This document shows positions 2,014-8,923 of a stretch of 45,438 nt of DNA, in pieces. Position 1 is the stretch's first letter, and every line of letters begins with the position of its first letter. Made by a program: the position numbers and the translations under genes. This DNA comes from Pseudomonadota bacterium (lineage in GTDB: Bacteria; Pseudomonadota; Gammaproteobacteria; Xanthomonadales; Xanthomonadaceae), in NCBI GenBank assembly GCA_018241125.1, contig JAFEEL010000035.1, positions 1-45,438 on the forward strand, read 5' to 3'. Under the pieces are notes generated by a model, which did not search any database, was not told the origin of the DNA, and was given only the letters and a program-made list of their open reading frames with translations.

Positions 2014-2282
2014 CAGCTCCCCTCGTCGAAGTTGCGCGCGAACAGCGCGGCGCCGGCTTCCAGAGCGGCCGCTTCGTCGGCGCCATTGGTGCGCAAGGTC
2101 ACCTTGCTGCCAACGCCTGCGGCCAGCAGCAGCACGCCCATGATGCTCTTGGCGTTCACCTCGCGGCCGTTGCGAACCAGGAACGCTTCGCAACGAAACC
2201 CCGAGAGCACTTGCACCAGTTTGGCGGAGGCGCGGGCGTGCAGACCGAGCTTGTTGGTGATGGTGATTTCGCGTTCGAGCAT
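2013..2282 (-). CDS. ptsH: Phosphocarrier protein HPr
   Basis: The 89-aa HPr carries phosphate from enzyme I to EIIA. The active-site His15 lies in NKLGLHARAS and the regulatory Ser46 in NAKSIMG. The latter is the site phosphorylated by HPr kinase, whose gene lies in the same operon, so both inputs to HPr are encoded here. The ATG at 2282 gives the standard HPr N-terminus. The frame stays open upstream only because the heptamer array (2292-2463) lacks stops in that frame; that extension is not credible. The stop overlaps the ptsI start. Confidence 0.95.
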   Translation of the reverse strand: MLEREITITNKLGLHARASAKLVQVLSGFRCEAFLVRNGREVNAKSIMGVLLLAAGVGSKVTLRTNGADEAAALEAGAALFARNFDEGS

Positions 2283-2291
2283 TGGATTGCC

Positions 2292-2463
2292 GGGAGACGG
2301 GAGACGGGAAGCGGGAAGCGGGAAGCGGGAAGCGGGAAGCGGGGAGCGGGAAGCGGGAAGCGGGAAGCGGGAAGCGGGGAGCGGGGAGCGGGGAGCGGGA
2401 AACGGGAAGCGGGAAGCGGGAAGCGGGAAGCGGGAAGCGGGAAGCGGGAAGCGGGAAGCGGGG
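2292..2463. repeat. Heptamer tandem array, about 24 copies (GGGAAGC)
   Basis: The plus strand reads GGGAAGC repeatedly, with GGGGAGC and GGGAAAC variants, for about 172 bp. It lies between the EIIA gene and ptsH inside the operon. The operon mRNA therefore carries C-rich, G-poor repeats (GCUUCCC), while the template strand carries G3-N4-G3 tracts that fit the G-quadruplex pattern. The array keeps several frames open on both strands, producing artefactual extensions of ptsH and ptsI. Confidence 0.95.
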
Positions 2464-2506
2464 GCGCTTCTCACCAATCACGAATCACAATTCACCAATC
2501 ACCGCC

Positions 2507-2899
2507 TCACCCATCATCCATCACCGCGCCGTTGCGCGCACCACTGGCGGCGATCTTTGCCAGTTCATCCAGATCGCATTCGGCGTGGTTGAGCACGCGC
2601 AGCAGCATCGGCAACGACAGCCCCGCGATGCGCCGGGCCGGAGTGCCCAACTGTGCCAGAATTCGCGCCAGCCGGCTCGGCGAGGCGCCGTACAGGTCGC
2701 TCAGCAGCAGCACGCCGTCGCCGCCATCGACTTTGCGCAGGGCGGCGCTTGCCAGCGGCAGGGCGGTGTCGAGGGGGGCGTCGAAGGCCAGCTCGAACGC
2801 ACCGACCGCCAGCGGCAGCTTGCCGAGCAGGCGTTCGGCCACCGCCCGGTGCGCCTGACCGATCCCTTCGTGGGTGATGAGCAACACGCCGACCGCCAT
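2507..2899 (-). CDS. PTS mannose/fructose-type EIIA domain protein
   Basis: This 130-aa single-domain protein resembles the IIA domain of mannose-family PTS. The expected phospho-acceptor His10 lies in GVLLITHEGIG, and a second family motif, LLLSDLYGASPS, lies near residues 64-75. It would take phosphate from HPr. No IIB, IIC or IID genes are nearby, so it probably acts in regulation rather than sugar uptake, as proposed for similar operons in other proteobacteria. The ATG at 2899 lies two bases after the rapZ stop, which supports translational coupling. The heptamer array separates it from ptsH. Confidence 0.88.
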   Translation of the reverse strand: MAVGVLLITHEGIGQAHRAVAERLLGKLPLAVGAFELAFDAPLDTALPLASAALRKVDGGDGVLLLSDLYGASPSRLARILAQLGTPARRIAGLSLPMLLRVLNHAECDLDELAKIAASGARNGAVMDDG

Positions 2900-2901
2900 G
2901 T

Positions 2902-3798
2902 TCACTCCAACTCGCGGTGGAAGGTCAGGACATCCTCGCGCCCGCCCTCGCGCACGTGCGCGGCCATGCGCTCGGCGAGGTACACCGATCGATGGCGACC
3001 GCCGGTGCAGCCAAACGCGATCGTGACGTAGCTGCGGGTGCCGCCCTCGAAGTGTGGCAGCCACTCGTCCAGAAAGGTGGCGATCTGCGTGAGGAAGCGT
3101 TGCACGTCGGGCTGCGCGTCGAGGTAGTCGCGCACAGCCGCGTCACGCCCGGACAGCGGTCGCAGCCGTGCATCCCAGTAAGGATTCGGCAATACCCGCG
3201 CATCGAACACGAAATCGGCATCGGCCGGTAGCCCGCGCTTGTAGGCGAAGGACTCGAACAATACCGACAATCCGGGGGTGGACTGCATCTCCAGTTCGGT
3301 GATGACCTGCCGGCGCAACTGGTGCACGTTCAGCTCGCTGGTATCGATCACGCGATCGGCCAGAGCGCGCACCGGCGCCATCTTCCTGCGCTCCAGCGCG
3401 ATGGCGTCGGCCAGCGGCACGCCGCCGCGGCTGAGCGGATGCCGGCGGCGGGTATCGGAATAACGCTTGAGCAGCACCTGATCGCTGGTGTCGAAGAACA
3501 CCAAACGGTGGTCGAAGCCTTCCGCGCCAACCGCCGACAGCCACTCGGGCATCTGTCCCATCTCGATGTCGCGATTGCGCACGTCGATGCCTACCGCCAG
3601 CCGGCGATGGGTGTGGTTGCGGGCGAGCACCGAGCGCACGAACTCCGGCAGCAGTGCCGCCGGCAGGTTGTCCACGCAGTTGAAATCCAGGTCCTCCAGC
3701 GTGCGCAACGCCACCGACTTGCCCGAACCGGACAGCCCGCTGAGCACGATCAGCATCGGCTTTTCGCCCACCGGTGCGGGGCCGTCCTCGGTATTCAT
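2902..3798 (-). CDS. rapZ: RNase adapter protein RapZ
   Basis: RapZ is a cytoplasmic P-loop protein. In enteric bacteria it binds small RNAs and directs RNase E to GlmZ, controlling glucosamine-6-phosphate synthase. The product is 298 aa, with Walker A GLSGSGKS at residues 21-28 and the C-terminal family segment [14 protein letters not shown]. The ATG at 3798 overlaps the hprK stop in an ATGA arrangement; an internal start at Met15 would also keep the P-loop. It sits in the operon with hprK, EIIA and ptsH, as is common in Gram-negatives. Whether it acts on small RNAs here cannot be told from the window. Confidence 0.93.
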
Positions 3799-4748
3799 GC
3801 GCCGTCCCCGTGTTGCAGGAATTGCGTGTGGCGGGCGAGGAACGCGGCGCCCGGGTCGATGCCCTTGATGCGCAGGATGTGCAAGCGCGCGGCCGCCTCG
3901 GTGAGCACCGCCAGGTTGCGCCCGGCGGCGACCGGCAGGGTGATCTGCGGCACGTCCAGATCCAGCACGCGGCGGCTGCCGACATCGCCGGTCAGGCGTT
4001 CCATGCCATCGGTGGCGGCGTCGCTGGCCCGCAGCCGCTGCAAGTGCACGATCAGGCGCAGGTACTTGTTGCGCTTGATCGCGGTGTCGCCGAACATTTC
4101 ACGGATGTTGAGCACGCCCAAGCCGCGCAGCTCCAGCAGGTCCTGCAACAAGTCCGGGCAGGTGCCGTCGAGCACGTCGGGCGCGATCTGGGTGAACTGC
4201 GGGGCGTCGTCGGCGACCAATCGGTGGCCACGGGTGATCAGTTCCAGCGCCAGTTCGCTCTTGCCCGAACCCGACTCGCCGGTGATGAGCACGCCGATCG
4301 AGTAGATCTCCATGAATACGCCGTGCAAGGTGAGCTGCGGCGCCAGTGCGCGGGCGAGGTGATACTGCAGTTGGTTGAGCAGTTCGTGCCCGCGCAGTGG
4401 CGATACCCACAGCGGCGTGCTGGCATCTTCGGCGGCCTCGCGCAAATCCGGCGGGCAGGCCTGACCCTTGCTGATGATCAGCGCCAGCGGGCTGAAGTTG
4501 ACGATTTTTTGCAGGGTCTCCCAGCGCAGTCGCGCATCCAACCCGTCCAGCCAGGCCAGCTCCTCGCTGCCGAGAATCTGCACGCGGTTGGGGTAGATGA
4601 TGTTGAGATAGCCCGCCAGCGATGGCCGCCGCGGGGTGGTGGCGGTGGCGTCCACGAAACGGTGCTCGCCGCTCTGGCCGCCGACACGGCGCAGGGACAA
4701 GCGCTCGCGGAGTTGCTCGAACAAGTCGCGGGCGGAAATCCGGTTCAT
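3795..4748 (-). CDS. hprK: HPr kinase/phosphorylase
   Basis: HprK phosphorylates or dephosphorylates HPr on Ser46. The 317-aa product has the P-loop [12 protein letters not shown] near residues 150-160 and the family signature region [16 protein letters not shown]. The N-terminal half matches the usual non-catalytic domain of the family. It overlaps rapZ by four bases. No strong Shine-Dalgarno is visible before the ATG at 4748. A strong hairpin (4797-4820) lies just upstream. A substrate HPr with Ser46 is encoded three genes downstream. Confidence 0.93.
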
Positions 4749-4796
4749 GGGCTTGATCGCCCGTCGGTGTCCGCGGCCGGTCGGGACGCGCGCCTC

Positions 4797-4820
4797 GCCG
4801 CACCCCGGTCGGGGTGCGGC
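4797..4820. other. Perfect hairpin between hpf and hprK
   Basis: GCCGCACCCC and GGGGTGCGGC flank a 4-nt loop, giving a perfect 10-bp GC-rich stem in the 108-bp gap between hpf and hprK. No U-tract follows on the transcribed strand, so it is not a canonical terminator. It could be a processing or stabilising element; that is inference. Confidence 0.6.
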
Positions 4821-4856
4821 ATGCTCGGGCCGGGGTGGCTGTCGAACGGCATCCGA

Positions 4857-5183
4857 TCAGCCAAAGCTCTCGTTGCGCGCCGGTGCGTCGGCGCGGTGGT
4901 GGCGGGCCTGCTTGCCCTTGTGCTTGTCGAGCATGCGATCGAGCTTGTCGGCGAGCAGGTCGATCGCGGCGTACATGGTGTCGGCTTCGCACTCGGCGAA
5001 GTGGGTGGCGCCGGGGGTGACGATCTTGGCGTCCACCTTGTGCAGCGGCTTGGAGATCCGGAGCGTCACGTGGATGTCCAGATCCCCGTCGGCATATCGC
5101 GCGAGGCGCTCGAACTTGGCGTTCACGTAGTCCCGCAGTGCCGCGGTGACCTCGATCTGATGGCCGCTGGTTTCGATGCGCAT
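4857..5183 (-). CDS. hpf: Ribosome hibernation promoting factor (short HPF)
   Basis: This 108-aa protein belongs to the HPF/YfiA family, which binds the 30S decoding region and promotes 100S ribosome formation in stationary phase. It starts MRIETSGHQIEVTAALRDYV and contains the family core with KFERLARY and HVTLRI. The length matches the short HPF type, without the extra C-terminal dimerisation domain. A strong Shine-Dalgarno (AGGAGG) sits seven bases before the ATG at 5183. It follows rpoN by 135 bp, the usual neighbour order in proteobacteria. Confidence 0.93.
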   Translation of the reverse strand: MRIETSGHQIEVTAALRDYVNAKFERLARYADGDLDIHVTLRISKPLHKVDAKIVTPGATHFAECEADTMYAAIDLLADKLDRMLDKHKGKQARHHRADAPARNESFG

Positions 5184-5318
5184 GTCGATCCTCCTGCTGT
5201 GGGTTTTTCGGCGCGTATGCGCGCCATGCCCAGAGTCGCAAGTTTCGGGCCGCGGGGGAAGGGGTAGGCGATGGGCGGGTCGGTCCGGTTCACGGTTCCG
5301 GCCCGCGCCCGAACCCCT

Positions 5319-6764
5319 TCAGGAGGGCCGTTGGCGCTCGTGCGAAGGCGCGATGCGTAGTATTTCCCGATATTTGGCCACCGTGCGGCGCGCCACCGGG
5401 ATGCCAGCGGCATTCAGATCGTCTGCCAGGCGCGCGTCGGACAGGGGTCTGCGCGCATCTTCGGCCTCCACCAACCGACGGATCATCGCCTGAATGGCGG
5501 TGCTGGATGCCGCCTCGCCGTCGGCGTTGGCGATCCCCGAGGAAAAAAAATGCTTGAACTCGAAGGTGCCGCGCGGGGTGTGCAGGTATTTGCGGGTGGT
5601 GGCGCGGGAAATCGTGGACTCGTGCAGCCCCAGTTCGTCGGCGACCTCGCGCAAGGTCAACGGGCGCATCGCTTCCGGGCCGTAGTCGAGAAAGCCGGTC
5701 TGCTGGCGGACGATCGCGCGGGCCACCCGCAGCACGGTATCGGCGCGGGTCTGCAGGCTCTTGAGCAGCCAGCGCGCCTCCTGCAGACGACCGCGCAGAT
5801 AGGCCGCATCGGTGCCGCTGGCGGTGCTCAACAGCGCTTCGTAGTGCCGACTGATCGCCAGCGCCGGCATGCGGTTGCCCGCCAGTGCCACATGCCACGC
5901 GCCGCATTGCCGGTAGGCCACGCAGTCCGGCTGCACGTACTCGGGCGCGGCGGAGGCCATGCGGCCGCCGGGGCGTGGGTCGAGCGAGCGCAACAATGCC
6001 ACCGCTGCGTGCACGACCGCAGGATCGGCGCCCAAGCGGGCGGCGAGCCGCTCGGGGCCGGCCTTGGCCAGAGTGTCGAGGTGGCCGTCGGCGACCTGCC
6101 GTGCCAGCGCCAGTCCCGGCGTATCGGGCGCCAGCATCGACAACTGCACTGCCAGGCACTCGGACAATCGGGTGCAGGCCACTCCGATCGGATCGAAGCG
6201 CTGAATGCGGTGCAACACGGCGTTCACTTCCTCGCTGCGCGCATCGATCTCGGGCAACAGCCCGGCACGGATGCTCTCCGGCGATTCGGTCAGGTAACCA
6301 TCCTCGCCCACCGCCTCGATCAACGCCACGCCGATGGCGCGCTCGCGGGGAGTCATCGGCGTCAGGTGCAGTTGCCACAGCAAGTGATCGAGCAGGGTGT
6401 CGGGTGCGGCCGGCTGCTCGAACGTGCCATCGTCCTCGCCGCGCCCGCCGGGGGAATGATCGTGCCGACTGGCATAGTCTGCCGCGTCCCATTCCGACGA
6501 CTCGACGCTTGTGTCGCTTGCGTCGGCGCCGGGATCGGCCACCGTGTCCTGCGCGGGCGCCGTGTCGCCCGTTGGCGTCGCTGGCGTCACCGTCGCGCCC
6601 ACGTCGGCGTCGTCTGCGCGCTCCAGCAAAGGGTTGCTTTCCAGCGCCAGATTCACTTCGTCTTCCAGTTCTGTCGCCGACAGCCCGAGCAGGTGGATCG
6701 CCTGCCGCAGCGCCGGCGTCAGGGCGAGGTGCTGGCCGAGTTGGGGGGACAGGGTGGGTTTCAT
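5319..6764 (-). CDS. rpoN: RNA polymerase sigma-54 factor
   Basis: Sigma-54 directs RNA polymerase to -24/-12 promoters that need enhancer-binding activators. The product is 481 aa. Region I is Gln/Leu-rich (QLGQHLALTPALRQAIHLLGLSA is its start in the sequence). An acidic region II follows, then a helix-turn-helix near EVADELGLHESTISRA, and the RpoN box ARRTVAKYRE near the C-terminus. I chose the ATG at 6764, which begins MKPTLSPQLG, over a start 21 codons upstream because the extra residues do not resemble the family. It is the first gene of the PTS operon and diverges from the asnB leader, so their promoters share 6765-6891. Confidence 0.95.
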   Translation of the reverse strand: MKPTLSPQLGQHLALTPALRQAIHLLGLSATELEDEVNLALESNPLLERADDADVGATVTPATPTGDTAPAQDTVADPGADASDTSVESSEWDAADYASRHDHSPGGRGEDDGTFEQPAAPDTLLDHLLWQLHLTPMTPRERAIGVALIEAVGEDGYLTESPESIRAGLLPEIDARSEEVNAVLHRIQRFDPIGVACTRLSECLAVQLSMLAPDTPGLALARQVADGHLDTLAKAGPERLAARLGADPAVVHAAVALLRSLDPRPGGRMASAAPEYVQPDCVAYRQCGAWHVALAGNRMPALAISRHYEALLSTASGTDAAYLRGRLQEARWLLKSLQTRADTVLRVARAIVRQQTGFLDYGPEAMRPLTLREVADELGLHESTISRATTRKYLHTPRGTFEFKHFFSSGIANADGEAASSTAIQAMIRRLVEAEDARRPLSDARLADDLNAAGIPVARRTVAKYREILRIAPSHERQRPS

Positions 6765-6855
6765 GGGGCACGACGGGTCGAAGCATGAATCATGCCGTTT
6801 TCGCGGTGAAGACGCGACCGCTGGCATGGTTCTGGAGGATGCCGGTCGCGGCGCA

Positions 6856-6872
6856 GTTGCGCCTTGCGCAAC
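6856..6872. promoter_or_regulatory. 17-bp perfect palindrome upstream of the asnB leader ORF
   Basis: GTTGCGC, CTT, GCGCAAC is a perfect inverted repeat. It lies 19 bases before the leader ATG, in the divergent rpoN/asnB intergenic region. It could be an operator for a dimeric regulator or a 5' RNA hairpin. Which regulator would bind is unknown. Confidence 0.5.
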
Positions 6873-6891
6873 AAACGGGCACGATCACCGC

Positions 6892-7008
6892 ATGCCCCGC
6901 ATCCCCGCCAACGCCTCCACTGCCAGCGCCTTGCTCGGTGCGGGCATTCGCGCGTGCGCCGGCAATTGCAATCGCAATAATCCCCGCCGCCCGCAGGACG
7001 GCGATTAG
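6892..7008 (+). CDS. Putative Asn-rich leader peptide of asnB
   Basis: This 38-codon ORF precedes asnB. Codons 25-30 read Asn-Cys-Asn-Arg-Asn-Asn (6964-6981), and all four Asn codons are AAT, an AT-rich choice in very GC-rich DNA. A hairpin followed by six T's begins five bases later, and a second intrinsic terminator follows at 7041-7068. This layout matches the ribosome-mediated attenuators of his, thr, leu and trp operons: ribosome stalling when charged Asn-tRNA is scarce would alter RNA folding and allow readthrough into asparagine synthetase. There is no strong Shine-Dalgarno before the ATG, so translation of the ORF is inferred from its composition and position. Confidence 0.72.
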   Translation: MPRIPANASTASALLGAGIRACAGNCNRNNPRRPQDGD

Positions 7009-7021
7009 CGCGCGGTTTTTT
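6987..7021 (+). terminator. Leader hairpin 1 with T6 tract (asnB attenuator)
   Basis: CCGCCCGC (6987-6994) pairs with GCGCGCGG (7008-7015) with one mismatch, followed by TTTTTT (7016-7021). The leader stop codon TAG (7006-7008) lies at the base of the 3' arm, so a ribosome reaching the stop would mask this hairpin. Confidence 0.55.
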
Positions 7022-7040
7022 CAAGCGTAGCGGTCCCCGA

Positions 7041-7068
7041 AACCTGCACCGACACGTGCGGGTTTTTT
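7041..7068 (+). terminator. Leader hairpin 2, intrinsic terminator before asnB
   Basis: AACCTGCAC (7041-7049) and GTGCGGGTT (7056-7064) form a 9-bp stem with one G-T pair and a 6-nt loop, ending in a run of six T's. No upstream gene is transcribed in this direction, so a terminator here makes sense only as control of asnB itself. Confidence 0.8.
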
Positions 7069-7100
7069 GTTGCGCGTGGTGGTGGCTGGTGAAGCGAAAA

Positions 7101-7127
7101 CAGATCCCTCGCGGTGCTCGGGATGAC
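7101..7127. repeat. Single arm of dispersed repeat in the asnB 5' region
   Basis: CAGATCCCTCGCGGTGCTCG followed by GGATGAC is one arm of the family seen at 11-92 and 24763-24850. It sits between the second leader terminator and the asnB start. The remaining bases to 7216 are pyrimidine-rich and show no further feature. Confidence 0.7.
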
Positions 7128-7216
7128 AACGAAACCGGCCTTCCTGATTTCCGACCCTCTTCCGTCATTCCTCATTCCTCATTCCCATTCTCCATTTCCC
7201 ACCCCGCAGGTGCCCC

Positions 7217-8923
7217 ATGTGCTCGATCCTCGGAGTTTTCGACTTCCGTCCCGGCGCGGACATCTCCCCGTTGCGCCCGCTGGCGTTGTCGATGTCGGCG
7301 CAGCAGCGCCACCGCGGCCCGGACTGGAGCGGCGTGCACGTCGATCCGTCGGCCATCCTCGTGCACGAGCGGTTGGCCATCGTCGATCCAGCCGGCGGCA
7401 GCCAGCCGCTGCGCTCGGCCGACGGCCGGCTGGTGCTGGCGGTGAACGGGGAAATCTACAACCACCACGCACTGGAAGCCGGGCTGGCCGCGCCGTATGC
7501 GTTCCAGAGTGGATCGGACTGCGAAGTGCTCAACGCGCTATACGCGCAGCATGAGGACATCGGCGCGTGGCTGGACGAGATCAACGGCATCTTCGCGTTC
7601 GCGCTGTGGGACCGCGACGCGCGGCGGGTGGTGATCGCGCGCGATCCGCTCGGCGTGTGCCCGCTGTATTGGGGCCACGACCACGAGGGCCGGCTATGGG
7701 TCGCATCGGAGATGAAAGCCATCGCCCGGCTGTGCGAGGACGTCACCGCGTTCCCGCCGGGGCACTGCTACGACAGCGCCAGCGGCGTATGCACGCGCTA
7801 TTACACGCGCACGTGGCGCGATTACGACGCGGTCGCCGGGGTGGAGGTTTCGCCGCAGGCCTTGCGCGAGGCGTTCGAGGCCGCGGTGCACCGGCAGATG
7901 ATGAGCGACGTGCCGTACGGCGTGCTGCTCTCGGGTGGGCTGGATTCGTCGCTGGTGGCCGCTTGCGCGGCACGCTTCGCACGCCGGCGCATCGAGGACG
8001 ACGACGCCAGCGAGGCGTGGTGGCCGCGCCTGCATTCGTTCGCCATCGGGTTGGCAGACTCGCCGGATCTAGCCGCGGCACGCATCGCCGCCGACGCCTT
8101 GGGCACCGTGCATCACGGTTTCACCTACACGTTCGAGGAGGGGCTGGACGCGCTGCCGGAGGTGATCCGCCACATCGAGACGTATGACGTGACCACCATC
8201 CGCGCCTCCGTGCCGATGTACCTGCTGGCGCGGCGGATCAAGGCGATGGGCGTGAAGATGGTGCTCTCGGGCGAGGGCAGCGACGAGATCTTCGGCGGCT
8301 ACCTGTATTTCCACAAGGCGCCCGATGCGCGCGCCTTCCACGACGAACTGGTGCGCAAGCTCGACGCGCTGCATTCCTACGACTGCCTGCGTGCCAACAA
8401 GTCGATGATGGCCTGGGGCGTGGAGCCGCGCGTGCCCTTCCTCGACGTGGCTTTCCTCGATGTGGCCATGCGCATGGACGCCGCGCACAAAATGGTGCGT
8501 GCGCGTTCGTCATCCAGTGGGGATGGCCGCCGCATCGAAAAAGCGCTGCTGCGCGAGGCCTTCGCCGGCTACCTGCCCGATTCCATCCTGTGGCGGCAGA
8601 AGGAGCAGTTCAGCGACGGCGTGGGCTACGGCTGGATCGACGGCTTGAAAGCGCACGCCGATGTGCACGTGAGCGATCGCGAGTTCGCCGCCGCGCCCGC
8701 ACGCTTTCCCGTCAACACCCCGCAGACCAAGGAGGCGTATTTCTACCGCGCGATCTTCGAGCGCCACTTCCCTGGCGACGCCTGCGCGCGCACCGTGCCC
8801 GGCGGCAAATCCATCGCCTGCTCGTCGCCCGCCGCGATCGCCTGGGATGCGGCATTCGCAACCGCTGCCGACCCATCGGGCCGGGCGGTGGCGGGAGTGC
8901 ATGCCGACGCGTTGCCGGCGTAG
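7217..8923 (+). CDS. asnB: Asparagine synthase (glutamine-hydrolysing)
   Basis: AsnB makes asparagine from aspartate, ATP and glutamine amide nitrogen. The product is 568 aa. It starts MCSILGVFD, giving the class II amidotransferase Cys after Met removal. The N-terminal glutaminase domain spans about residues 1-190. The synthetase domain carries the ATP-pyrophosphatase loop LSGGLDSS near residues 238-245 and GEGSDEIFGGY downstream. The length is close to the E. coli enzyme. Position 7217 is the only start that preserves the catalytic Cys2. A long leader with an Asn-rich ORF and two terminators precedes it. It converges on the flotillin-like gene. Confidence 0.95.
   Translation: MCSILGVFDFRPGADISPLRPLALSMSAQQRHRGPDWSGVHVDPSAILVHERLAIVDPAGGSQPLRSADGRLVLAVNGEIYNHHALEAGLAAPYAFQSGSDCEVLNALYAQHEDIGAWLDEINGIFAFALWDRDARRVVIARDPLGVCPLYWGHDHEGRLWVASEMKAIARLCEDVTAFPPGHCYDSASGVCTRYYTRTWRDYDAVAGVEVSPQALREAFEAAVHRQMMSDVPYGVLLSGGLDSSLVAACAARFARRRIEDDDASEAWWPRLHSFAIGLADSPDLAAARIAADALGTVHHGFTYTFEEGLDALPEVIRHIETYDVTTIRASVPMYLLARRIKAMGVKMVLSGEGSDEIFGGYLYFHKAPDARAFHDELVRKLDALHSYDCLRANKSMMAWGVEPRVPFLDVAFLDVAMRMDAAHKMVRARSSSSGDGRRIEKALLREAFAGYLPDSILWRQKEQFSDGVGYGWIDGLKAHADVHVSDREFAAAPARFPVNTPQTKEAYFYRAIFERHFPGDACARTVPGGKSIACSSPAAIAWDAAFATAADPSGRAVAGVHADALPA

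Follow-up and report, generated by a model that had tools for sequence, protein, structure and literature searches.

An asparagine-specific ribosome-mediated transcription attenuator probably controls asnB

The region from 6892 to 7068 in front of the asparagine synthase gene asnB very probably functions as a ribosome-mediated transcription attenuator responding to the charging of tRNA-Asn; we put the probability of this reading at about 0.93. Positions are those of the window, namely the whole stretch of 45,438 nucleotides that was analysed. An asparagine-specific attenuator of asnB had been proposed in a preliminary description of the window, and the idea is supported by the present analysis, although its details have changed to one terminator and a GCAGG/CCTGC antiterminator. 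Comparison of the related loci backs the Asn codons, the terminator or a terminator-like hairpin, the pairing of the leader end (region 2) with the terminator 5′ arm (region 3), the geometry of these elements, and the promoter spacing.

The gene under the proposed control, asnB (7217–8923, plus strand), encodes asparagine synthase B: the protein matches the equivalog model NF006949 with 830 bits (cut-off, 499), and no second match to it was found in its own genome at E ≤ 0.001. The gene upstream of the leader is rpoN (5319–6827, minus strand). As had been stated, it is transcribed away from asnB, and thus the hairpin described below is not there to end rpoN. On the minus strand from 3795 to 6827, rpoN is clustered with an HPF/YfiA-family gene and an HPr kinase gene, and this cluster adjoins asnB. 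The leader itself is an Asn-rich ORF of 38 codons on the plus strand, running from the ATG at 6892 to the TAG stop codon at 7008 and encoding the peptide MPRIPANASTASALLGAGIRACAGNCNRNNPRRPQDGD. The earlier reading of an Asn-Cys-Asn-Arg-Asn-Asn run in which all four Asn codons are AAT was borne out: the putative regulatory codons AAT TGC AAT CGC AAT AAT occupy 6964–6981, with Asn at 6964, 6970, 6976, and 6979. Outside the run, Asn is encoded a fifth time, by AAC at 6910.

Conservation in relatives had been named as a test of the attenuator, and both the Asn codons and the asnB-proximal hairpin were found to recur: an Asn-rich ORF (at least three Asn in 12 codons) and a hairpin lie within 500 bases upstream of the gene in 104 of the 108 asnB upstream regions. 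The loci, 110 in total, consist of 30 from the window's genome and its relatives and 80 named ones (Lysobacter, Luteimonas, Thermomonas, Arenimonas, Xanthomonas, Pseudoxanthomonas, Stenotrophomonas, Dyella, Luteibacter, Rhodanobacter, Dokdonella, and others); the two sets overlap, and some genomes are present twice (e.g., L012/L039, L013/L040, and L022/L065). L020 and L068, which have 6 bases upstream at a contig edge, were left out, as was L028 (a false ORF) before the structure counts, and removal of the duplicates from the 104 leaders gave 100 distinct ones. At one further locus (L011), the attenuator (stretch L230) was located 356 nt upstream behind inserted DNA, and this displacement explains why it was missed there. 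The genome concerned (G001) belongs to the same genus as the window. No leader was found within 500 bases at L028, L091, and L097, where the AsnB identity is 77–78% (L028 and L097) or 81% (L091).

We also scored 60 further upstream regions of the order by the presence of an ORF with at least four Asn. Such an ORF was found in 11 of the 12 regions of family f12 and 7 of the 9 of family f1, these counts referring to the ORF alone, with the hairpin seen by eye in L166, L171, L176, and L177. It was found in none of the 18 regions scored in f9, one of 17 in f7 (L128), and neither of the single regions of f5 and f10; L137 and L145 were unscored because the start-codon rule failed, the start of L149 is doubtful, and L121 is short. 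Three Asn are present in L119, L124, and L127 (f7) and in L151 (f9), and L119, when inspected by eye, had no leader. L128, whose leader encodes MFAIYNTINTTNNRLLRSAGSF, also has a terminator, and a GCGGG/CCCGC antiterminator can be made out there by eye. Five f1 genomes without the leader (L158 and L178, and, by eye, L186–L188) have a divergent AsnB, with 62–66% identity to the query. In the class, 5 of 321 genomes, the window's own included, have an AsnB at E ≤ 1e-190, and the one of these outside the family, G316 (L185), has no leader by eye. The families that carry the leader are, we take it, the Xanthomonadaceae and Rhodanobacteraceae. Plant pathogens, opportunists, and biocontrol bacteria are among the members of this group.

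In the 100 distinct leaders, 607 AAC or AAT triplets are in the reading frame, while the other two frames contain 8 and 4 (12 in total). This confinement to the frame indicates selection on the amino acid and not on the bases. Furthermore, of the 77 asnB upstream windows that reach at least 400 bases among the 80 named loci, 72 contain a short ORF with at least four Asn per 12 codons, as against 4 of 1040 control windows taken from the flanks of the same loci; on the reverse strand, none of the 77 contains one. In the leaders of the named loci, AAT accounts for 234 of the 477 Asn codons, as compared with 91 of 727 in their asnB genes (Fisher p = 4e-44). That the sensitivity of an attenuator depends on which synonymous codon is used is argued in PMC1183508; low structure around the codons is an alternative reason for the AAT preference. 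The leader ORFs are 20–63 codons long (median 31, the longest being probably overcalled), and their sequence and length drift except in the Asn run and in the C-terminal codons that form region 2. N-R-N motifs are present in 66 of the 100 leaders, and the Arg codon is CGC at 73 of 74 such sites; for the Xanthomonas-type leaders, folds offer the suggestion, and only that, that this CGC could pair with region 2.

Two terminators had been assigned to the region following the ORF. The second was confirmed as real, while the first, a hairpin at 6987–7021, is not a terminator. The real one has the structure GAAACCTGCAC-CGACAC-GTGCGGGTTTT at 7039–7066 (plus strand), with its T-tract reaching 7068. 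Its 5′ arm (region 3, GAAACCTGCAC, 7039–7049) contains CCTGC (7043–7047), which can pair with either region 2 or region 4, and its 3′ arm plus T-tract (region 4, GTGCGGGTTTTTT, 7056–7068) was assigned from the hairpin fold and the comparison. In alignment A1, which comprises 55 of the 104 loci picked for typical geometry and whose percentages consequently lean upward, 99.5% of the cells of the terminator helix are paired, and the helix covaries. By the rule used for T-richness, 96 of the 104 hairpins are followed by a T-rich tract and 8 are not, one of the latter (L092) being misplaced.

As to the rejected hairpin, the fold of 6980–7025 gave a z value of −0.36, no better than shuffled sequences, and the T6 run at 7016–7021 (plus strand) that had been taken for its tract is the window's own: a T run of six occurs here in 1 of the 104 leaders, and 74 of the 104 have no T run longer than one between the stop codon and the terminator. 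The local hairpin made up of CGCCGCC and GGACGGCG (6985–7003, plus strand) is probably a 1:2 protector hiding region 2 and not a terminator. For the stretch of the second hairpin (7022–7070), z was −1.23, modestly better than the shuffles; the fold of 6892–7075 was unremarkable (z, −1.21), and a consensus terminator scan of the window listed no plus-strand terminator. Single-sequence fold and terminator statistics are thus uninformative here, and the case for the attenuator rests on comparison.

The antiterminator consists of GCAGG (region 2, 6993–6997, plus strand), located within the last leader codons, and CCTGC at 7043–7047. This pairing, which is conserved and covarying, was absent from the earlier proposal. 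In A1, the five pairs of the core are formed in 54, 53, 55, 55, and 53 of the 55 loci, and the middle one is G-C in 45 and A-U in 10, and is broken in none. The covariation score of the 2:3 pairing was 0.170, as compared with 0.094 for the shuffles (0 of 500) and 0.001–0.094 for slid registers; two of the five pairing measures in A1 were no better than the shuffles (both-sided change, 236 of 500; pair types, 481 of 500). The outer pairs are weaker, holding in 17, 26, and 31 of 55 loci and in 42 of 53. Ten loci carry U at the middle position of the 5′ arm; in all 10, region 2 has A, while the terminator has only a U-G wobble in 8. Since the A of region 2 is retained at the terminator's expense, the 2:3 pairing looks selected in its own right. 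When the arms were exchanged between loci, the mean energy was −17.3 kcal/mol for own arms and −14.6 kcal/mol for those of other loci, with a median rank of 21% and a rank in the best 5% in 12 of 98; owing to the conserved core, an arm from another locus is frequently almost as good a match. Shuffled region-2 segments paired as well as the real ones in 6.8% of cases. In the window, region 2 forms only five pairs (−9.4 kcal/mol) and is weaker than the terminator (−15.0 kcal/mol), so that the switch must be kinetic. The antiterminator folds suggested previously are to be replaced by this pairing: GGTTT (7014–7018) can pair with AAACC (7040–7044) in the window, but on visual inspection no row of A1 other than the window's has GGTTT there, and the pairing of CGCGCG (6949–6954) with the 3′ arm of the rejected hairpin is absent from the minimum-energy folds.

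A generic sigma-70 scan placed a putative promoter of the leader on the plus strand, with the −35 element TTGCGC (6857–6862), a 17-nt spacer, and the −10-like element CACGAT (6880–6885), the last of which ends 6 nt before the leader ATG. In 97 of the 104 loci, the end of the −10 element in the best such site within 60 nt is 6 nt (66 loci) or 7 nt (31 loci) from the leader ATG; the promoter-based choice of that ATG allowed 6–8 nt and the wider scan reused the ATGs so chosen, which is relevant to these numbers where several in-frame ATGs exist. Unlike the distance to the leader ATG, that to the asnB ATG is scattered. Base −1 of the leader ATG is C in 92 of 96 cases, and Shine-Dalgarno-like tetramers precede 25 of the 104 leader ATGs (24%, somewhat over the background of 14%) as against 100 of the 104 asnB ATGs. 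Judging from these sequence features, the transcript would start at or immediately beside the A of 6892, and the leader is probably leaderless. Leader ORFs that begin at the transcript 5′ end are reported in PMC7298713 and PMC8079986 for S. meliloti trpL and for leuL, trpL, ilvL, and thrL of S. lividans. These resemble the Asn leader in that presumed leaderless state and differ from it in the amino acid (Trp, Leu, Ile, or Thr) and in belonging to an alpha-proteobacterium or an actinobacterium. As the transcript seems to begin at the leader's own ATG, the system would offer a compact test of ribosome-RNA polymerase coupling on leaderless messages.

The positions of the Asn codons, region 2, and the stop codon are related in a regular manner. 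The first paired base of region 2 is 8–11 nt past the last Asn codon in 67 of the 100 leaders (11 nt in the window), and region 2 starts 10–20 nt ahead of the stop codon in 80 of the 100. A ribosome stalled with the last Asn codon in its A site is assumed to cover 12 nt, counted from that codon's first base; its edge would then lie just short of region 2 or overlap it by 1 base, while a ribosome at the stop codon would cover region 2. Folding of the RNA left exposed by a ribosome stalled on Asn gave region 3 a median of 7.6 upstream pairs, with at least four in 97 of the 100 leaders. With the ribosome at the stop codon, the same model gave medians of 11.6 terminator pairs and 2.5 residual upstream pairs, with at least four upstream pairs in 24 of the 100. 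In 25 leaders of the Lysobacter type, one of them the window's, a 1:2 helix in an adjacent register has 162 of its 175 cells paired, as compared with 44–101 cells in slid registers; the folding model did not predict a 1:2 protector in most of the 100 leaders, a median of 2% of region 2 being paired upstream.

For the events in the cell, namely the start site, translation, stalling, and termination, we infer the following course. Transcription would begin at the A of the leader's start codon or next to it, with a ribosome trailing RNA polymerase along the leaderless transcript. With ample asparagine, this ribosome would clear the Asn codons, get to the stop codon, and cover region 2; region 3 would then pair with region 4, and transcription would end at about 7068. 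When Asn-tRNA is scarce, the ribosome would stall at the Asn codons and its front edge would lie just short of region 2, which, being free, would pair with region 3; no terminator would form, and asnB would be transcribed.

Among the competing explanations, the one that survives best, though we regard it as very improbable, is that the hairpin is an ordinary terminator or a spacer, that asnB has its own promoter downstream of it, and that the ORF is a chance Asn-rich frame. The 148 nt between the terminator T-tract and asnB in the window would give room for such a promoter, and the spacer from the hairpin to the asnB ATG ranges from 25 to 308 nt across the loci. However, this spacer is at most 50 nt in 51 of 103 loci, and the 25–36 nt found in 16 of the 103 leave scant space for a separate promoter. 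In addition, rpoN is divergent and therefore is not ended by the hairpin, and the Asn codons are frame-specific and rare in the controls, unlike those of a chance frame. Part of the spacer in the window is occupied by a dispersed genomic repeat (7091–7134, plus strand), which is inserted between the terminator and asnB and has 18 other matches in its own genome at E ≤ 0.001; by eye, it was not seen in the short terminator-asnB spacers of the relatives.

Even less probable is that the product of the ORF is a small, functional Asn-rich protein whose gene happens to lie in front of asnB, the RNA structure being incidental. The position of the ORF is indeed conserved, and leader peptides can act in trans, as described for peTrpL in PMC7298713. 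Nevertheless, the drift outside the Asn run and the region 2 codons and the covariation of region 2 with the terminator arm both argue against such a protein, as does the finding that no leader peptide scored above the cut-off in NCBIfam (four scanned) or Pfam (three scanned). A different sensor, such as a T-box, a riboswitch, or a protein-binding leader, would also act through an alternative antiterminator, but such control of the terminator is just as hard to credit: no Rfam gathering match was found in 12 related loci and no T-box covariance-model match in these or in the window, only 60 nt separate the leader stop codon from the end of the T-tract in the window, the stretch from stop codon to terminator is poorly conserved in A1, and the best of the only three Rfam matches in the window, all sub-threshold, is itself a leader-peptide attenuator (Thr_leader, RF00506; 18.8 bits against a threshold of 55).

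Attenuation by a translating ribosome, the reading preferred here, places the Asn leader beside known systems. The Thr operon leader (RF00506) and the classical his, trp, leu, and phe attenuators share with the Asn leader mutually exclusive 2:3 and 3:4 helices, regulatory codons, and a terminator of the same shape. The Asn leader is unlike RF00506 and the his, trp, leu, and phe types in its Asn codons, in its few Shine-Dalgarno-like tetramers, and in the location of region 2 mostly within the ORF. It is therefore a new amino-acid specificity of known ribosome-mediated attenuation and not a new mechanism. No earlier description of an asparagine attenuator was found in the open-access literature searched; a comparative survey of proteobacterial attenuators was reportedly made by Vitreschak et al. 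in 2004.

A covariance model of the leader end and the terminator, with the structure given for the terminator only, was used to search 60 genomes. Among the matches listed, 27 of the 28 with at least 46 bits adjoin asnB, many of them being the model's own source sequences and so matching by construction, and the 28th is on a fragment of G033; apart from this fragment, no locus away from asnB scored at least 46 bits among the matches listed. Ten stretches with weaker matches were examined, and they turned out to be three ilv leaders, six other terminators or chance matches, and one displaced asnB attenuator (L230). L222, L225, L226, L228, L229, and L231 were rejected as further Asn attenuators, since they have no Asn-rich ORF. 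L223, L224, and L227 have Ile/Leu/Val-rich leader peptides and terminators upstream of ilvC/ilvD-type genes (gene identity by eye). By eye, these ilv attenuators are similar to the Asn leader in having a run of cognate codons (e.g., ILVVVLI), a GC-rich terminator, and a complementary segment at the ORF end, and they differ in the codons, which are those of Ile, Leu, and Val, and in the genes, which are those of branched-chain biosynthesis. They score 34–40 bits with the Asn model, and a shared origin is possible.

The window's genome has AsnS and one AsnB, and no match to GatB or AsnA was found in it. Asn-tRNA is therefore expected to come solely from free asparagine there, and the sensor would thus read the product of AsnB directly. 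In 40 relatives, AsnS was found above the cut-off in 38, GatB in 8, and AsnA in 1. None of the eight genomes with GatB (G037, G040, G042, G045, G046, G048, G049, and G050) has a close AsnB (E ≤ 1e-150), and among these 40 genomes of the order the GatB and AsnB routes to Asn-tRNA seem to exclude each other. Two genomes of the same family, G006 and G015 (99 and 95% complete), have AsnS, and AsnA, GatB, and a close AsnB match are absent from them; these may possibly be asparagine auxotrophs.

A broader proposition, for and against which we see the odds as evenly balanced, is that the Asn-specific leaderless attenuator is the conserved control of asnB in the Xanthomonadaceae and Rhodanobacteraceae, has been retained where Asn-tRNA apparently can be obtained only by way of AsnB (no GatB and no AsnA), is tuned by the otherwise rare AAT, is planned like the ilv attenuator of the lineage, and has been transferred jointly with asnB, as one unit, to at least one myxobacterium record. 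With the attenuator, asparagine would join the amino acids sensed by leader-peptide attenuators, control of the asparagine supply would be predicted for the group, and a short ORF could be named in 100 distinct leaders and probably in many more genomes.

The myxobacterium record is that of Nannocystis pusilla (L092, about 2230–4180), which has an asnB 80% identical, an Asn-rich leader (with a GTG start by eye), and a hairpin. For three ORFs neighbouring this asnB, the other 79 named loci gave no match, which suggests that the gene and the switch were transferred together; alternatively, the record may reflect contamination. The asnB of a Holophagales MAG (L091) is 87% identical to that of L092 and has no leader, and, by eye, an upstream ORF ends close before it.
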